The notes under the pieces: generated by a model | What the model was told of the DNA's origin: nothing | The model's database searches: none | Seen by the model: only the letters and a program-made list of their open reading frames with translations | Position numbers and translations under genes: made by a program | DNA from: Tranzscheliella williamsii | Lineage: Eukaryota; Basidiomycota; Ustilaginomycetes; Ustilaginales; Ustilaginaceae | Reading direction: 5' to 3' | NCBI GenBank assembly: GCA_023212725.1 | Contig: JALBYF010000002.1 | Coordinates: forward strand, 186,001 to 250,000 | DNA length: 64,000 bases | In this document: in pieces, positions 16,605 to 25,715 of the stretch | How positions within the stretch are numbered: position 1 is the first letter of the stretch | How the letters are laid out: each line of letters starts with the position of its first letter

Positions 16605-17963
16605 CTATAGAGCGAAGAGGAGGGCGAGAGCGGTGGTGGCGAGAGCAAGGGGGAGGGAGGCAGGGGAGCGGGGGAGGGTGGGAGTGGTGGAGCTGGCGGC
16701 GTTGACGGTGCGTGCGGTGGTGCCGGTGTTGAGGCCGTCGGCGAGGCTGGCAAAGCCGACGCGCGCGGAGGGGGTGGTGGTGAAGACGGTGTAGACGTTC
16801 TTGAGGAACGCGTCGCCGACGATCCACTGCAGGCTGGGGGAGGACGAGGAGCCGAGGCTGAAGAAGGCGCCGAGGCAGCGGCCCGAGCTGCCGAGGCGGC
16901 CGGCGGCGAAGTCGATGTCGGGGATCGAGTACTGTGTGGTGCCGAAGGTCATGGTGGCGTTGATGGTGGCGCTGCACGGGTACGAGTAGTAACCGCTCCC
17001 CTCGGTGCCTTCGGTGCGCGAGCCGGGGATGTTCGCATACAGCGCCGCAATCACCTCGTCCGGCCCGGCAATCAGCGTGGTGCCCGTGTCGATGGCGGCA
17101 CGGTCTAACCCGCCCAGGTCCAGCGCATTCCCCTGGGCGCTCACCCCCCCGAGCGCCAGCAACCAGTACAACTGCTCCAGCACCCGGTTGTACGAGATCT
17201 CGCCCTGGTACAGGCTCGTGTTGGTGCCCCCGAGCGTGAAGACCCCGCCCTCCTGCAGCGCGCTGTTCGACTGCAGCGACGCACGCTCCAGGTAGAACGA
17301 AAACGTGTCCTGCGCCGCCGCCACCCAGAACGGCGGCTCGCCAGACGCGGCGAGCCGCGGAAAGCCCAAGCCCATGATCCCCTCCATATTGGCGTTGGTC
17401 AGGCCCGCAGCCACCTGGTCCGCCACGGCAAAACCGAGGTGCGGCACCGTCGAGCCGGCCAGCGTGAACTGGTCCGTGGCCGTGAAGCCCGAGACATTGC
17501 CAGAGCCGTACTGGATGTTGAAGCCGGGAGGGCCCCTGCGGAACGTGCTGGACTCTGGCGTGTGGAAGTACTCGTTCGAGAGCCAGAAGTCGGACGAGCC
17601 CGTGTCGAGGACGACGCGGTAGTCCTTGGACGGCGTGCCGCCGCTGACGCTAGCCACCCAGGAGCTGTCGTACTGGAGGTTGGTGAGCGCCGCCGCCCCG
17701 GCACGCCTCCGCTTCGACGACATCGCCGAGCCCGACGCACCGAGGTGGTATTTGTTCTGGAGGTGCGCCTTTTGCTGTTGTGCCCACTCCAGCAGCTCGT
17801 CCGCCGAGCGCGCCTGCATCCGCCGCTTCTGGATCGGGATCTGGACAGCGCTCTCCCGCTTGCCGCTGGCTGCAACACCCCCAGACGCCGGATAGCCAAA
17901 CGCAGTCCAAGCGGACACCACCAGGACGCTCGACGCCCACAAGCTCACGTTTGCCACCTTCAT
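16605..17963 (-). CDS. Pepsin-like aspartic protease with GPI-type C-terminus
   Basis: Family A1 protease of 452 residues. Catalytic aspartates are D120 in VVLDTGSSDFW and D292 in AAIDTGTTLIAG; the flap tyrosine is Y152 in IQYGSG. I start at 17963, where the protein opens with a signal peptide (MKVANVSLWASSVLVVSAWT). The frame continues 38 codons upstream, but that would bury the leader. A basic propeptide with KR/RR sites (IPIQKRRMQ, SSKRRR) precedes the mature domain. The C-terminus has a Ser/Thr-rich stretch and then a hydrophobic tail (ASLPLALATTALALLFAL), as in GPI-anchored yapsin-like proteases. It probably acts at the cell surface. The downstream neighbour is convergent. Confidence 0.92.
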   Translation of the reverse strand: MKVANVSLWASSVLVVSAWTAFGYPASGGVAASGKRESAVQIPIQKRRMQARSADELLEWAQQQKAHLQNKYHLGASGSAMSSKRRRAGAAALTNLQYDSSWVASVSGGTPSKDYRVVLDTGSSDFWLSNEYFHTPESSTFRRGPPGFNIQYGSGNVSGFTATDQFTLAGSTVPHLGFAVADQVAAGLTNANMEGIMGLGFPRLAASGEPPFWVAAAQDTFSFYLERASLQSNSALQEGGVFTLGGTNTSLYQGEISYNRVLEQLYWLLALGGVSAQGNALDLGGLDRAAIDTGTTLIAGPDEVIAALYANIPGSRTEGTEGSGYYSYPCSATINATMTFGTTQYSIPDIDFAAGRLGSSGRCLGAFFSLGSSSSPSLQWIVGDAFLKNVYTVFTTTPSARVGFASLADGLNTGTTARTVNAASSTTPTLPRSPASLPLALATTALALLFAL

Positions 17964-18885
17964 CGCGGCTGCCCTAAGACCGAACTGGACCGAACTTTTC
18001 GGTGCGTCGATGTCGGTGTCGGGAGGAGGTAGCTGGAAAGAGCGATACCAGGATCGGAGGGCAAGGTGGCAAATCACACCAGACGCTCAAGCAATGCTTC
18101 TTATGGGAACAGACGAATGCGGTGCTATGGGTAACGCCGGAGATTCAGCAGCGGAGTCAGCCAAGCAGGCAGGGTCCCCGCCACTGGAGGACGGTGCAGA
18201 CGGATGCGACAAGCCAAAACCAGCCGACCAACTTGTCTTGGCGGCGGAGTTGGTTGGCTCCTTGGAGCCGGCTGAGCTGCTGCCGCTCTTCGAAACGCGC
18301 CCGTTTCATGCATCTATGCACCGATGGCACTGCGCCTGCTGCCGAACTTCCGTACATACGCACCGCAGGCGCAGATCCGTATCCGCCGCTTCTGCTATGC
18401 TAGCCCTTTGGGGCTGCGCAGGCGTCACTGTGATGGAGCAGGCTAAAGCGGATGCCTTTTCTTTCGGTCCACGGCGTAACGCAAGTGGCAGGGCCGCCAG
18501 ACGACGGGCCGGCCTGTCCCCACGCCCATGTTCCTCGAGATTCGCCCCGAATGACGCCATCTCGCAGCACAGCCATTGTCCGGCTGAGCGGCGATGGAGG
18601 GCCAGTCATGACGAAAATTCACTCAGCCACCACAGCAGCGACACTTGTTCAAGTTGCCTCGCCAGAAGACACTTGGATCGTACCCAGACCTGCCACAGCC
18701 CGCCAGGAACGTCGCAGCAGATCAAAGCAGTGTGAGTATGGCTGCTAGAACATCTAGTTTAGCGTGAGTGTGACTGATCTGATTTGCTGATCTGAAGCCG
18801 AGCTGGTCACACTTTCACAAGTTGAGCAGCCAGCACCCGATCCGGGATGTCAACGGTCCGGAGAAAGGTGGGTGGCAATGGCGTC
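17964..18885. other. Intergenic, promoter of the protease
   Basis: This 920-base gap lies upstream of the protease and downstream of the PUS-THUMP gene. Open frames exist on both strands (for example 18010-18735), but none has a domain, a plausible composition or a homologous look, and I do not call a gene. Confidence 0.5.
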
Positions 18886-21800
18886 TCATGTGGCTACCTT
18901 GCGCAGCAGAAAGACGTAGACATGGTATCCGATCTCGATTTTGCGCATCTTGTTGTTGCGCTGCGCTTCGAGCAAGCCCTGCTTTCGCACTTTGTCGTCC
19001 TCGACCTGTTCCAGAGCCGACAGGCTATGCTGTGTGGCGCTGGCGTGTGCGTCGATCTCGGTGGCGGCGTCGTTGGAAAGCATCCTGACGCGCTCCATGC
19101 TGAGTACCGCGCCGAACCTGTTTCGCCTGCATGTGGTTGCGAAGTTCGAGAGCGCGCACGAGAGCGTCTTGTGCTCGGCGGTGACGGCGACAATGTAGCC
19201 TCCGGTGCGCAGGACCGAGAACCAGCTGGCGAGGAAAGCGGTGTACAGCTTGGACAGCGACTGCGATGCCTTCTCGCGCTTGCCCCAGGGCAGGTCGGTG
19301 ATGATGGCGTCGATGCTGCGCGGTCCGCCGACAAAGTTCTCCAGCGCCTCTGGCTGGGTTGCGTCGACGGCGGCCAGGTGTAGCTGCACCGTACCGGCGT
19401 GTGGGAAGCCGGCGAGGGCGGCGATCTTCTGCGCACGTTCGATTGTCTCCTCGTCGATGTCGCAGCCGAAGACGTGGCACGGGAGGCCCTTGGCTTCCAT
19501 CATCGCGGCCGTCTCGAGGGCGAGCGAGCCGTGGCCGCAGCACGGCTCCAGCACGCGCAAGGGCTCTATCTCGGCGTGATGCTGGCTGCCGTCCGGGCTG
19601 GTGCGCTCGAGCGGCAGCGGCAGCGCCAGCGCCAGCGACGCCGCGCGGTACTCGGCCATCGCCGTGCCGCCCACCAGCAAAGCGTTCCTGCCCGCGGGCC
19701 GGCGCGCCGCCCGCCGCGTCGGCACCGGCAGCTTGAGCAGGAAGACAATCTGGCCCTCGGACTGCAGCCCCACATCGTCGTCCGGACCCAATGCCTTCTC
19801 CACCTCGTCGCCAATGCCGAAGCCGGGCAGGAGCTTGAGCGTCACATCCAGCAACGGCTCCTCCAGGTCGACGCGCCACTTGGCCGGCCGCGACGGATCC
19901 TGGTTGTCGTTGGTAGCCCCGTTGAGCCACGTCCACGCCAGCTCGCCCACGTAACGCTCCATTGTCTGCGACGTCAGGCTCGGCATATTGTACGTCGCCC
20001 GGTCCACGGATGCGCGGTAGTTGAGCTGGTCAGCCGTCGGCCTCTGCCCTGTCACCGACTCCACGGTCTCCATCCATTGCGCCAATGCCTTGTCCAGCTG
20101 AGCGGCCGAGGAGTCCCAGATCTGGCGCAGCAGCTCCAATAACTTGACCTCGGAAGGGAAGGCGGAGGCACTGTCGCCGGCGACATCCGGGGTTGCAGTA
20201 CCGGGCGTGCTACCTTCGGCTGCGCTGTCCTCCGCGGCGACAGGGCCGGTGGAAGGTAGCGGGGCCGCTGCGTCATGCGGCGCTTCTTGCGCTGCGGGCG
20301 AATCCGCCGGTGGGTCACGGAGGACGGCGGGCATCTCGACCATGCCGGGCGTGGGCTTTTGCGTTGGCTGCCGGCGCTTGCCTTTGGTGAGGGCCTTGTT
20401 TAGCTCTCTCGCCCGCCACTTGGCGCGCTTGCTCGCGCCGCCAATGTGCTTTTCGTGCTTGAGCTGCTGGGCCAAGTCTCGCGGGAAGTCGTGCTTCGCG
20501 GTGAGCAGGTACGCTGCCTTGGCGATGCCCAGCTGTGCGTCGAAGTACGCCGCCAGCGCTGCCGCCGCCAGCGTGGGGTCCTCGATCCGGACGTGGCCGG
20601 AATGGATGCTGGACGCTAGTGGCGCGTGGGCGCGGGCGGTGGGCAGGTCAGCTCGCAGCGCGATCTGTTGTGCCAGTTCGCGCTGAGCAAAGTCTTCGAA
20701 TCCGCCAAACACCTGGAACACCACAGGTGCTTGCAGGCGCCCAGCTCCGTAGATGGCCGCAGGGGTCTGCTGCCCGCTGGACTGCACAGGGTAGGCAAAG
20801 TCGGAGAGCTGGCGGACGCGGGTGATCTCGACGCCGCGGTCCGGTTGCGTGTATTTCTGGGGCTCTGCTAGGCGCGAAGCCTTCTCCTGGATCTCGCTCG
20901 TGATCACCGTGGAGAAAGCGTTGCTGGACAGCTCTGCCTCTGTTTTGTGCGCGACGTCGAGGTCGCGGGGCAGCGTGGCTTCCGCCGCGGCCGCAGTGCT
21001 GGTGCTGGTTGGCGAGACCGACATCCAGTCCTCCCGCGCCCACCACGGCAGGGCGTCCTCGAAGGACCACTCGTCGGTCCAGTACTTGATGGCGTGGAGG
21101 TAGATGTACAGCTCCTCCGGCGTGGGGTCCGGCAGGAGCGGGATCCTGCACTCCGGGCAGAACTCGGACGACTGCTCGCGCACGCGCTTCTGCCACGCCG
21201 TCTCGACGTCCTGCGGCCGGTTGAACCCCTTGGACGGCACCTCGCCGTTCTCCATCTCGAGCTTCTGCAGTGCGCGTTGCAGGAGCTCGTCAGACGGCCG
21301 GCTCGACCGGCCGTTGGGACCGGGCACAGAGACATTTTCGAGTCCTTCCTGCTGGATGATCTGCTTGAAGAGGACTTCGTCCTTCCACCTCGCCCAGTCC
21401 TCCTGGCCGTCCTGGTCTCCCTTGATGGCGTCGACGATCTGCTCGACCTCCTTCTGACCGATCTCGCCGCCGACCTTCTTCCACTCGCCGGGGACGACCT
21501 GGGCGAAGGCGGCGGGGTCGACCTTGGCCCATACGTCGTGGCCGTAGATGGGGTCGTTGCAGATGGGGTGGCCGAGGTGTTGGACGTGGACGCGGATCTG
21601 GTGGGTGCGGCCGGTGATGGGACGGCAAAAGACGACGCTGCTGTCGGTGGCGGCGTCGTACGAGAGGCGCACGAAGATGGTCTCGCACGGCTTGCCCTTG
21701 GGATGGACAATGTTGACGCCGCTCTGGCGGTCGATGGTGAGGATGGGTTGCTTGCACGCGACTTCGCCCGCGGGGAACTGGCCACGGACGCGGCAGACGT

Positions 21801-22368
21801 AGGCCTTGCTGACCTGTCCGGCGGCAAACTGCGCGCCGAGGCGCGACGCCATCTGCTTCTTGGTCGAGCAGACCATGACGCCGCTCGTGAGGCGGTCGAG
21901 GCGGTTGGTGGTGTAGACCATCTCGATGCCGTGCTCGGACTGCAGCAGGCCGGTGAGCGTGTGGCGCAGGTACCGCCCCGCCGCATGCACGGGGATACTG
22001 CCCGGCTTGACAATCACCAGCACACCCTGCTCGTCGTCGCGGTGCAGGATCTTGACCGCCTCGTCCGTCACCGGCGGCTCGTGCCGGTGGACACTGTTGC
22101 CGATCTTGTCGCCGTCGCGGATCACCTGGTGCAGCCCCGCCTTCTCGCCATTGACGCGGCAGATCCCCTTGTGGATCGCCCACACATAGTACTCCTTGGT
22201 CCGGTCGCGGAACTCGGTCGTCATAATCTCGATCAGCTCCCGCCCAAACCACCGCTGCTTGGCATACGTCTGAAACTCGTACCAGTACGGCGCCGTCTTC
22301 CGCAGCCCACCCTGCGCGCGCACGCCGCCGCTGCGGCTCGTCCCTGCTTCTCTCTCGGCACCCTCCAT
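18886..22368 (-). CDS. Fusion of Rib2/Pus9-type pseudouridine synthase and THUMP methyltransferase
   Basis: One uninterrupted 1160-codon frame. Residues 25-290 are an RluA-family pseudouridine synthase of the yeast Rib2(Pus8)/Pus9 type: RWFGRELIEIMTTEFRDR, an S4-like region, HRHEPPVT, catalytic D158 in NRLDRLTSGVM, and RPITGRTHQIRVH. The Pus9-type tail with FCPECRIPLLPDPTPEELY and a Trp-rich end reaches about residue 450. After a low-complexity joint, residues 550-850 show a THUMP-like region (FQVFGGFEDFAQREL; YRASVDRATYNM). Residues 930-1160 form a Rossmann methyltransferase with EPCCGHGSLALE and the amino-methyltransferase motif IITDLPWGKR (D1025-R1031), close to THUMPD2/THUMPD3 guanine-N2 enzymes. 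The first half is expected to make pseudouridine in tRNA (position 32 in yeast); the second should methylate guanosine in tRNA or U6. Separate genes in the model fungi and animals that I know. Confidence 0.9.
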   Translation of the reverse strand: MEGAEREAGTSRSGGVRAQGGLRKTAPYWYEFQTYAKQRWFGRELIEIMTTEFRDRTKEYYVWAIHKGICRVNGEKAGLHQVIRDGDKIGNSVHRHEPPVTDEAVKILHRDDEQGVLVIVKPGSIPVHAAGRYLRHTLTGLLQSEHGIEMVYTTNRLDRLTSGVMVCSTKKQMASRLGAQFAAGQVSKAYVCRVRGQFPAGEVACKQPILTIDRQSGVNIVHPKGKPCETIFVRLSYDAATDSSVVFCRPITGRTHQIRVHVQHLGHPICNDPIYGHDVWAKVDPAAFAQVVPGEWKKVGGEIGQKEVEQIVDAIKGDQDGQEDWARWKDEVLFKQIIQQEGLENVSVPGPNGRSSRPSDELLQRALQKLEMENGEVPSKGFNRPQDVETAWQKRVREQSSEFCPECRIPLLPDPTPEELYIYLHAIKYWTDEWSFEDALPWWAREDWMSVSPTSTSTAAAAEATLPRDLDVAHKTEAELSSNAFSTVITSEIQEKASRLAEPQKYTQPDRGVEITRVRQLSDFAYPVQSSGQQTPAAIYGAGRLQAPVVFQVFGGFEDFAQRELAQQIALRADLPTARAHAPLASSIHSGHVRIEDPTLAAAALAAYFDAQLGIAKAAYLLTAKHDFPRDLAQQLKHEKHIGGASKRAKWRARELNKALTKGKRRQPTQKPTPGMVEMPAVLRDPPADSPAAQEAPHDAAAPLPSTGPVAAEDSAAEGSTPGTATPDVAGDSASAFPSEVKLLELLRQIWDSSAAQLDKALAQWMETVESVTGQRPTADQLNYRASVDRATYNMPSLTSQTMERYVGELAWTWLNGATNDNQDPSRPAKWRVDLEEPLLDVTLKLLPGFGIGDEVEKALGPDDDVGLQSEGQIVFLLKLPVPTRRAARRPAGRNALLVGGTAMAEYRAASLALALPLPLERTSPDGSQHHAEIEPLRVLEPCCGHGSLALETAAMMEAKGLPCHVFGCDIDEETIERAQKIAALAGFPHAGTVQLHLAAVDATQPEALENFVGGPRSIDAIITDLPWGKREKASQSLSKLYTAFLASWFSVLRTGGYIVAVTAEHKTLSCALSNFATTCRRNRFGAVLSMERVRMLSNDAATEIDAHASATQHSLSALEQVEDDKVRKQGLLEAQRNNKMRKIEIGYHVYVFLLRKVAT

Positions 22369-22755: not shown

Positions 22756-23301
22756 TTATTTGTCTTTTTTCACCGACATGCCAGCTTCAGCAGCGGCTTC
22801 TTCAGCCAAGGCGCGCTCATGAGGCGGTGTGCCTAGCGCCTTTTCTGAATACGCTTCTTGGGTGGCCTGCATGAGCTCGTGGATCTGGTAGATCTGTTCG
22901 TCCGACATCTTCTCCAACAGCTGCGGGTCGAGCCGCTGGCCGCGGAAGCCGCCGGGCTTGCCTTGCTGCACCTCGAGCTGGTCGAGATACATCTTCCACG
23001 AGCTAAGGAAGCCAATGATCTGGAGGGGGTTGTCGATCGACCGATGCCGGCGGAACTCGTCCTTGATGTAGTTGTCACCGACCGCTCGCATGTCGGCGTC
23101 CAGCTGACGATGCGCTCGGAGCAGACGGCGATAGAGCTGAACGGGGGGCAGGATGGTGGCAGTGGCCCGCTGCACCGCTGACCCTCCTGAGCCGGGAGGA
23201 ATGGGTTGTTGCGAAGCGGCCGCCCGCCAAGGTGATGAGGAGCGGACCCACAGTGCAGAAGTAGCTCGCATCATTTTGTGGCTACAGGGCGGACCGGGCA
23301 T
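22756..23301 (-). CDS. SDHAF3: SDHAF3/Acn9 succinate dehydrogenase assembly factor
   Basis: The protein has the LYR signature in VQLYRRLLRAHRQLDADMR, then GDNYIKDEFRRHRSIDNPLQ and IGFLSSWKMYLDQLEVQ, the hallmark order of Acn9/Sdh7/SDHAF3. This mitochondrial matrix factor protects and matures the iron-sulfur subunit of complex II; yeast acn9 mutants fail to use acetate. The N-terminus (MMRATSALWVRSSSPWRAAA) is a good mitochondrial presequence. Translation may start at the MM pair at 23274/23271 rather than the first in-frame ATG at 23301; the sequence does not settle it. The total of 181 residues is somewhat longer than yeast Acn9, because of an Ala/Glu-rich tail. Confidence 0.92.
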   Translation of the reverse strand: MPGPPCSHKMMRATSALWVRSSSPWRAAASQQPIPPGSGGSAVQRATATILPPVQLYRRLLRAHRQLDADMRAVGDNYIKDEFRRHRSIDNPLQIIGFLSSWKMYLDQLEVQQGKPGGFRGQRLDPQLLEKMSDEQIYQIHELMQATQEAYSEKALGTPPHERALAEEAAAEAGMSVKKDK

Positions 23302-23894: not shown

Positions 23895-25715
23895 CTACTT
23901 GGCGTAGCACTTGTTCCACTCAGCAGCCTTGTCCACCCAGGAAAGCTGCGTTAGGAAGGCGGGAAGCGGACAGAGGAAGGGATGTTCCAACTTCGAGCCT
24001 GCCGATGCGGGACACCAGGTTCCTTCGGAAAGCTCTGCAGGAGCATCGTTAACCAGGACACGGACCAGCTCGTCCGAATGGCCGCAGTTTACCTTTTCGA
24101 TGGTCAGTTTGCCAGAGAAGGGGGTCGTCTCTGAGGCTTTCCAGTCATGCTGCCTGTGCCACAGGTTCAAAGAGGCAATGATGGGCGCTAGTTGGTTGTC
24201 GTGAGTAAAGTCGATGAAAGCGTGGGGACCGTCATGGGAGGGCAGTGGGAACGTCATGGAGCTCTTGTCTAGGGTTGTATTTATGGACGTAGGTGGAGAA
24301 AGAACGGGCTTTCGGCCCTCCAGCCGGGCTCGCAGTTCGCGGAGCCACGGCGTCGCAAGCGCTTGGTGGAAGTTCTGATGTGCTGCAAAGCCATAGTCCT
24401 TTTCAAGATCTTGTGCGATCTCGTAGATCTCGCCAAATTCGCTGGGTTGGAACAGGCTACAGAAGGGGCTGACGACATCGGCGTTCCGCTCGGCATCACC
24501 CAGCAAGACACCGTATGGGTCGAGTCGGGAGACTGTGTCGAAGGCGCAGAGGCTAAACAGTTGAAGGATCTGCTGGGCGTTGAGGTGAAGCCTCTCACCT
24601 CTGCGGCCCTTACTTCCTCCTCGTCGAGCACCGAGCTGCTTGGCCAATCGTTTCTGGATGGGCTCGGTGGCTTTATGGGCAAAAGACAGGACTTTACGGG
24701 ATGCTTCGCTCTGCGCATTATCTCGCTGCGTTTTCTCAAAGGCTGGACAGGTATATACGTCCAGGGTGTTGTTACTCGCGCCTTGTCCGAGTTTGTCCGC
24801 CTTGCGAGCTTCAGAGATGATTACATCGGGTTGCGGAAGGCCCCGGATCGGCCGGTGTGGTTTGCGTCCCTTTTTCGCGTCGATGATCGATGGCCGACCT
24901 TTCTGCGGCCAAGGCGCTGACTCCGGCGCTGTATGCTGGAATTGCTTCCGTGGCTTGGAAAAGCCCTGCAGCCAGAACCTAGAGGAGGTAATCACTCTGT
25001 CCGCGCCCGAAGCTCTTACAAAGGGGCGGTCGGACCAGGGGTGGGTACTGTCTCGAAGCTCGCCGGATTTGGGCCAGAACAGTCGGCAGATTTGCGAGCG
25101 CATCCTTGCAAGCACTCTCTGTGGCAATGAACTGGACGGGAGGACTTCGGGTTGTGCTTGGCATACAAAGGACATCTTATACTTTGGGATGTGTGGAACG
25201 TCGTAATCGTCGTTAATGTCGATGTTCCCAGCCGAGAACAGGTGGGCATACTTGTCGGAGAAGCGCCTGCCGGAAGAGAAGGCTTCATACTGACCGTACG
25301 GAGTGAGCTCAGAGTTGCCGAGTCTGTTGCGCAATCCTCCGTCCTCATTCTTCTCTGTTGCGACCCATTTGCGAAGCCAGTCGAGCGAAGGGTCGAGACC
25401 ATCATGGGCCTTTGCTTGGTCTCCGACTTCAGGTACATGCTCCAAGTGCTTCGCAATTTGTCGCAACGTCTTGTGGAGCTCTCTGTACGCACCAGCGGTA
25501 GGATAGCGCGAGCCATGACGTTCTAGCTGGCTGACAAAGGTGACAGTACAATGCTTTGGCAGCTGATCCTCTGCCGAGGTGACATTGGCAGGGAACCAAG
25601 GGGAGTACTGCCCAAGATTGTGGAAGAGCGAGGCTGGCAGAACATCGGGTCCAGCCACCGGAGTGCCAATAGAGGCCGTGGAGAGCCCAAGCGGTGTGTC
25701 CGGGAGCATAGGCAT
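23895..25715 (-). CDS. Histidine acid phosphatase (phytase/MINPP-like)
   Basis: Branch-2 histidine phosphatase of 606 residues. The phosphoenzyme motif is QLERHGSRYP (RHGxRxP), with VRASGADRVITSSRFWLQGF and the C-terminal proton-donor region DFTHDNQLAPII. Two family blocks also fit: LTPYGQYEAFSSGRRF and CPAFEKTQRDN. It should hydrolyse phosphate esters such as inositol phosphates. About 40 residues precede SLFHNLGQYSPWFP without any signal peptide or membrane anchor, although relatives are normally secreted or anchored. An in-frame stop lies shortly upstream of the chosen ATG, so a missing 5' exon is possible; I could not find a convincing splice pair. An extra basic insertion (GARRGGSKGRRGE) sits in the middle. 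Confidence 0.85.
   Translation of the reverse strand: MPMLPDTPLGLSTASIGTPVAGPDVLPASLFHNLGQYSPWFPANVTSAEDQLPKHCTVTFVSQLERHGSRYPTAGAYRELHKTLRQIAKHLEHVPEVGDQAKAHDGLDPSLDWLRKWVATEKNEDGGLRNRLGNSELTPYGQYEAFSSGRRFSDKYAHLFSAGNIDINDDYDVPHIPKYKMSFVCQAQPEVLPSSSLPQRVLARMRSQICRLFWPKSGELRDSTHPWSDRPFVRASGADRVITSSRFWLQGFSKPRKQFQHTAPESAPWPQKGRPSIIDAKKGRKPHRPIRGLPQPDVIISEARKADKLGQGASNNTLDVYTCPAFEKTQRDNAQSEASRKVLSFAHKATEPIQKRLAKQLGARRGGSKGRRGERLHLNAQQILQLFSLCAFDTVSRLDPYGVLLGDAERNADVVSPFCSLFQPSEFGEIYEIAQDLEKDYGFAAHQNFHQALATPWLRELRARLEGRKPVLSPPTSINTTLDKSSMTFPLPSHDGPHAFIDFTHDNQLAPIIASLNLWHRQHDWKASETTPFSGKLTIEKVNCGHSDELVRVLVNDAPAELSEGTWCPASAGSKLEHPFLCPLPAFLTQLSWVDKAAEWNKCYAK

Follow-up and report, generated by a model that had tools for sequence, protein, structure and literature searches.

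Introduction

Rib2 and Pus9 are enzymes that isomerise U32 of transfer RNA (tRNA). According to the summary account in PMC8256712, Rib2 of yeasts usually combines a pseudouridine synthase with a deaminase, and Rib2 of moulds is a deaminase only. Here we describe a gene in a window of 64,000 nucleotides from the smut fungus Tranzscheliella williamsii (contig JALBYF010000002.1, positions 186,001 to 250,000), located on the minus strand at 18886..22368 of the window, that encodes one protein of 1160 residues in which an RluA-family pseudouridine synthase is fused to a THUMP methyltransferase. Like Saccharomyces Rib2 as outlined in PMC8256712, this protein is a pseudouridine synthase bearing a second enzyme at its C-terminus. 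Unlike Rib2, whose second enzyme is a riboflavin deaminase, its second half is a methyltransferase, and the deaminase family PF00383 has no match in the protein at E up to 1 and six places elsewhere in the genome.

The second half resembles Trm14, TrmN and THUMPD3, the enzymes of N2-methylguanosine at tRNA position 6 (m2G6). It shares with them the S-adenosylmethionine (SAM) and D-x-P-aromatic-G motifs and, in the predicted model, the order of N-terminal ferredoxin-like domain (NFLD), THUMP, linker and Rossmann domain, with a fold that matches over nearly the full length. The solved or described members of this group stand alone, whereas the window protein carries its methyltransferase behind a synthase; in the excerpted text of PMC10415138, THUMPD3 has no yeast orthologue. 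Other modifying enzymes with two activities differ from the window protein in what they combine. Bacterial RlmKL/YcbY has two methyltransferase activities and a ribosomal RNA (rRNA) substrate, and no synthase half. The Vibrio C-to-pseudouridine editor TrcP, as summarized in PMC9553926, likewise joins a pseudouridine-forming activity to a second tRNA-modifying one, but its second activity deaminates the same base. Thermococcus TK1257, by the description in the title and abstract of PMC12255305, is also a tRNA position-6 methyltransferase of unusual domain composition, but its product is 2'-O-methylcytidine. Among the matches listed in a literature search, no title or abstract start described a fusion of a pseudouridine synthase with a THUMP methyltransferase. 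The locus holds a real, conserved fusion of two known enzyme families that apparently lacks a description in the literature.

One conserved gene encodes both enzymes

The frame runs from ATG to TGA through 1160 codons with no stop, as had been claimed in an earlier note made from the sequence of this DNA alone. That note also saw no obvious splice site, and a search of the frame for the donor pattern GT[AG]NGT, with weaker donors not sought, gave zero matches. The GC content at third codon positions was 0.73-0.93 across all eight segments computed and 0.81 in the joint between the halves (codons 451-546); the flanks, 400 bases on each side, had overall GC contents of 0.50 and 0.585. The open joint alone is weak evidence of one gene, and one other frame on the same strand is likewise open through codons 440-560. 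Conservation, on the other hand, is strong evidence. The earlier note had proposed a search of domain architectures, and among the 46 homologues listed, the closest being from Sporisorium graminicola (71% identity), precomputed Pfam matches placed PF00849 and PF01170 together in 28. The named genera among these 28 are Sporisorium, Pseudozyma, Ustilago, Kalmanozyma, Testicularia, Melanopsichium, Thecaphora, Violaceomyces, Tilletiaria, Ceraceosorus, Microstroma and Parajaminaea, and one further record bears the name of a fern. The claim of one protein with a synthase and a methyltransferase is therefore confirmed: the architecture is conserved over several orders, and the active-site motifs that the note had quoted, including D158, are present in both halves. 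A merger of two neighbouring genes through a sequencing error or a gene model, which the note had named as a possible refutation, has a negligible chance given the 28 two-domain homologues, spread over many records and genera, and the coding-like composition throughout the joint, and was rejected.

The remaining 18 homologues matched PF00849 only. They comprise 12 Malassezia-type proteins, two shorter environmental ones (P0018 and P0019), and four from Tetrapyrgos, Phellopilus, Calocera and Mycena, which we take to be Agaricomycotina. Taxonomy look-ups assigned Tilletiaria, Ceraceosorus and Microstroma to Exobasidiomycetes, Violaceomyces to Ustilaginomycetes and Malassezia to Malasseziomycetes, all within Ustilaginomycotina; the placement of the other genera is our own. 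A family scan of 43 aligned rows found PF00849 in 43 and PF01170 in 29. The stand-alone protein P0044 stops just beyond the CxxC/LHA tail of the synthase, near residue 450 in the numbering of the window protein, and so marks the fusion joint. Another protein, P0045, has an extra tail with no PF01170 match.

For the synthase half, a tree was built from 33 rows: the query, 8 of 17 Ustilaginomycetes, 8 of 11 Exobasidiomycetes-type, 12 of 12 Malassezia-type and 4 of 4 Agaricomycotina-type rows. The tree of the second half had 29 rows and no outgroup. For rows that lack an organism name (sources ena and lgn), the group assignment is our reading, and only four of the 12 Malassezia-type rows carry that genus name. 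In the synthase tree, which comes with a long-branch warning, the Malassezia-type rows fall within the fused group beside Ustilaginomycetes (93/96, not starred), and the Exobasidiomycetes-type rows form earlier branches. Because of this distribution, we infer that the common ancestor of the sampled Ustilaginomycotina already had the fusion.

Several records depart from this pattern. P0022 (1010 residues), filed under the fern Adiantum nelumboides, is a two-domain protein of fungal type; since the synthase tree places it within the fused fungal group, though on a long branch, the record is probably fungal contamination. P0043 (Tetrapyrgos, named YTM1) joins the same synthase to WD40 domains and P0046 (Mycena) joins it to the P450 domain PF00067; both may be merged gene models. 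P0036 of Malassezia cuniculi (1302 residues), which extends beyond the end of the fused protein and includes a DUF6533 stretch, is probably also one.

The first half is an RluA-type synthase

PF00849 scored 92.4 bits against a curated cut-off of 26.8, and TIGR00005 scored 215.4 against 192.7, which places the first half in the RluA family. The catalytic domain comprises residues 97-285 (21514..22080), with the PF00849 match at 116-264, and has the RluA catalytic fold in the predicted model. Its catalytic aspartate, D158 of the R-L-D triplet in NRLDRLTSG (21895..21897), is found in all 41 fused rows (29 with the region of the methyltransferase motifs intact and 12 Malassezia-type) and is invariant in the 43-row alignment. 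In front of it lies an S4-like region at residues 22-95 (22084..22305), where the alignment to RluD, N-terminal domain included, begins at residue 27; the S4 family PF01479 was matched in four of the 43 aligned members, the window protein not being among them. The synthase ends in a C-terminal tail that carries CxxC and LHA-x-x-Y (residues 396-450, 21019..21183), as delimited by the alignment and by the end of P0044. Several relatives are recorded as 'related to DRAP deaminase RIB2'. A six-frame search of the 18.18 Mb genome found a single RluA-family place. If this is true, RluA-type sites of the cytosol and of mitochondria would all be served by the fused protein.

The second half resembles m2G6 methyltransferases

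The predicted fold assigns the methyltransferase half to the Trm14/TrmN/THUMPD3 kind. The model aligned with TrmN over 330/332 residues and with Trm14 over 348/368, spanning 546/547 to 1158/1159. The NFLD covers residues 547-645 (20434..20730), where the alignments to TrmN and Trm14 begin, and has a GLED or GxED motif, also in 12/12 Malassezia-type rows. It is followed by a charged linker at residues 646-735 (20164..20433), in part of low confidence, with a predicted local distance difference test (pLDDT) score below 50 at 665-678 and 689-733, and by the THUMP domain at residues 736-880 (19729..20163), which is supported by a fold match and by an hhalign alignment to frog THUMPD3 that runs through it (FRVTCNR aligned with YRASVDR). 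The Rossmann methyltransferase domain forms residues 895-1160 (18889..19686), with a fold match to TrmN and Trm14 and a PF01170 match at 938-1086 (E 2.5e-16). It contains both a SAM motif I, EPCCGHGS at residues 941-948 (19525..19548), and a catalytic motif IV, TDLPWGKR at residues 1024-1031 (19276..19299); the latter has the form [ND]-x-P-aromatic-G, which we take to be the pattern of Trm14, TrmN and THUMPD3. Among the 29 non-Malassezia fused rows, EPC of motif I is kept in 28 (P0008 has EAC), and P1027, W1028 and G1029 are kept in all 29.

Sequence searches for stand-alone relatives were made with the 634-residue half and with a 9-row profile that left out row P0032, each scoring about 8000 candidates that shared most words. 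The first returned five proteins, namely one from Violaceomyces, one truncated environmental protein and three short records of smut type. The five of the profile search were three smut-type pieces, frog THUMPD3 and a protein from a bacterium under the name tRNA (guanine6-N2)-methyltransferase. These results bear on the alternative that the half is THUMPD2-like and acts on U6 small nuclear RNA (at m2G72 in the human case), the synthase having a target elsewhere. Both THUMPD2 and THUMPD3 are THUMP methyltransferases that work with TRMT112, as summarized in PMC10415138, and the genome has one U6 candidate (41.2 bits, under the Rfam cut-off of 44). However, the animal protein found by the profile is named THUMPD3 and the bacterial one is a tRNA enzyme by name, the best fold matches are tRNA G6 enzymes (no THUMPD2 structure being among those listed), and the conserved loop VSLGKT of human THUMPD2, as given in the excerpt of PMC13109388, had no exact counterpart near the C-terminus in a comparison by eye. 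We consider a U6 enzyme quite improbable.

Malassezia-type proteins keep the second half without its motifs

In the 12 Malassezia-type rows, EPC of motif I is found in none and P1027 in 11, with W1028 and G1029 in none, and the THUMP core DRxxYxxP is present in all 12. The skin yeasts (Malassezia) thus retain this half but appear to have lost its methylating chemistry. Because the ferredoxin-like and THUMP parts and a Trm14-like fold have outlived the SAM and catalytic motifs, we tentatively consider that in the Malassezia lineage the former tRNA methyltransferase may have become an RNA-binding arm, which only brings tRNA to the attached synthase. We rate this reading as less likely than not.

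The fusion could also be neutral, with two independent enzymes that share a promoter and abundance and are tethered through a flexible linker. The joint at residues 451-546 (20731..21018) has pLDDT below 50 at 455-460 and 478-511 and of 82-88 at 511-530, and its mean identity is 0.48 among Ustilaginomycetes rows and 0.13-0.16 against the other two groups. This low identity between groups and the low-confidence stretches 478-511 and 665-733 would fit such a tether, but the halves are joined in all sampled orders, and the second half of Malassezia-type proteins has outlasted its motifs with DRxxYxxP intact, which suggests use in cis. A neutral fusion is thus unlikely.

Candidate partners and tRNA positions in the genome

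PF01170 was found at two places of the genome at E <= 0.001 (four candidates scored): the fused gene and a 611-residue frame with DPPYG that we read as a putative Trm11. PF02926, the THUMP family, was found at one place, a 437-residue frame that we read as a putative Tan1. A putative Trm112 gene with one intron lies on contig C35, and its joined reading exceeds the PF03966 cut-off. Given these readings, the fused half is the sole candidate for an m2G6-type enzyme in the genome, as far as the searches reach.

The earlier note had suggested that a fused enzyme could place two modifications on the same RNA. We examined 62 listed tRNA matches, an incomplete list since 63 of 391 candidates were scored, and some of the intron-containing calls may be wrong. 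Contig C3 was taken as mitochondrial, and 46 matches lay outside it. Removal of two without an ARAGORN call and three with unverified anticodons left 41 nuclear tRNAs, 27 of them distinct. Of these, seven have G6, ten have U32 and three have both (two being tRNA-Leu), with 2.6 expected if the two were independent; on contig C3, both occur together in 1/16. That tRNAs bearing both G6 and U32 are no commoner than expected speaks, within this incomplete list, against marking of the same molecule as a general purpose, and that purpose was rejected. More specifically, the fusion might exist so that a single binding event gives one tRNA molecule both pseudouridine 32 and m2G6. The resemblance of both halves to tRNA enzymes and the three tRNAs with both positions would agree with this, but three is close to the expected number, and the fusion persists in Malassezia-type proteins that lack the methyltransferase motifs. 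The suggestion of the note found no support, and dual marking as the reason for the fusion is improbable.

Neighbouring genes

The next open reading frame upstream (22756-23301, minus strand) encodes an LYR protein (Complex1_LYR_2, E 3e-23), perhaps, we presume, an assembly factor of the SDHAF3/Sdh7 type. Farther upstream, 23895-25715 (minus strand) encodes a histidine phosphatase branch 2 protein (PF00328, E 4e-37). On the other side, 16605-18077 (minus strand) encodes an aspartyl protease (PF00026, E 6e-52).

Discussion

Judged by its sequence and predicted model, the window protein is an RluA-family synthase followed by a partly disordered linker and an NFLD-THUMP-methyltransferase unit of the Trm14/TrmN/THUMPD3 kind, with the motifs of both enzymes kept. 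We think it fairly probable that it is one bifunctional tRNA-modifying protein. The first half would isomerise uridine, most likely at position 32 of tRNA, the site of Rib2 and Pus9, and the second half, together with Trm112, would form m2G at position 6. The THUMP/NFLD unit would grip the acceptor end of the tRNA and would do so for the attached synthase as well, thus serving both halves, which would explain why Malassezia retained it once the methyltransferase motifs had gone. The RNA targets, the use of Trm112 and the help in cis are what we infer.

Several findings weigh against this reading. The U32 assignment draws on the names of relatives and on general knowledge of Rib2 and Pus9. The THUMP label of the earlier note is upheld by the profile alignment and the predicted fold, but not by PF02926, which was unmatched in the window protein at E up to 1 and, in the scan of the 43 aligned rows at E up to 0.1, was not among the families listed. 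The rRNA methyltransferase family AviRa (PF11599) scored 27.6 bits, just above its Pfam cut-off of 25.7, and AviRa ranked second among profile matches to solved structures (E 1e-7), with Trm14 lower at 1e-3; therefore, the sequence by itself does not point uniquely to the m2G6 group. The NCBIfam model Trm14_Arch (NF040721) scored 29.5 bits and did not reach its cut-off of 280. In addition, the role as a binding module is deduced from conservation, but the C-terminal half has diverged more quickly than the synthase half in every group, and in Malassezia-type rows parts around the methyltransferase core outside the motifs have drifted as well.

The fusion places a methyltransferase of the Trm14/THUMPD3 type, of which THUMPD3 has no orthologue in baker's yeast according to the excerpt of PMC10415138, in fungi, and unexpectedly behind a synthase. 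Since named relatives are filed as pseudouridine synthase, as hypothetical protein or under RIB2, the methyltransferase is easily overlooked. If the second half has become a binding arm in Malassezia, the active smut enzyme would represent the ancestral stage, and m2G6 writing in these fungi would have survived only attached to a synthase. Smuts and Malassezia provide a natural experiment, with the same fusion with and without the methyltransferase motifs, in which the idea that a THUMP domain serves a synthase in cis becomes testable.
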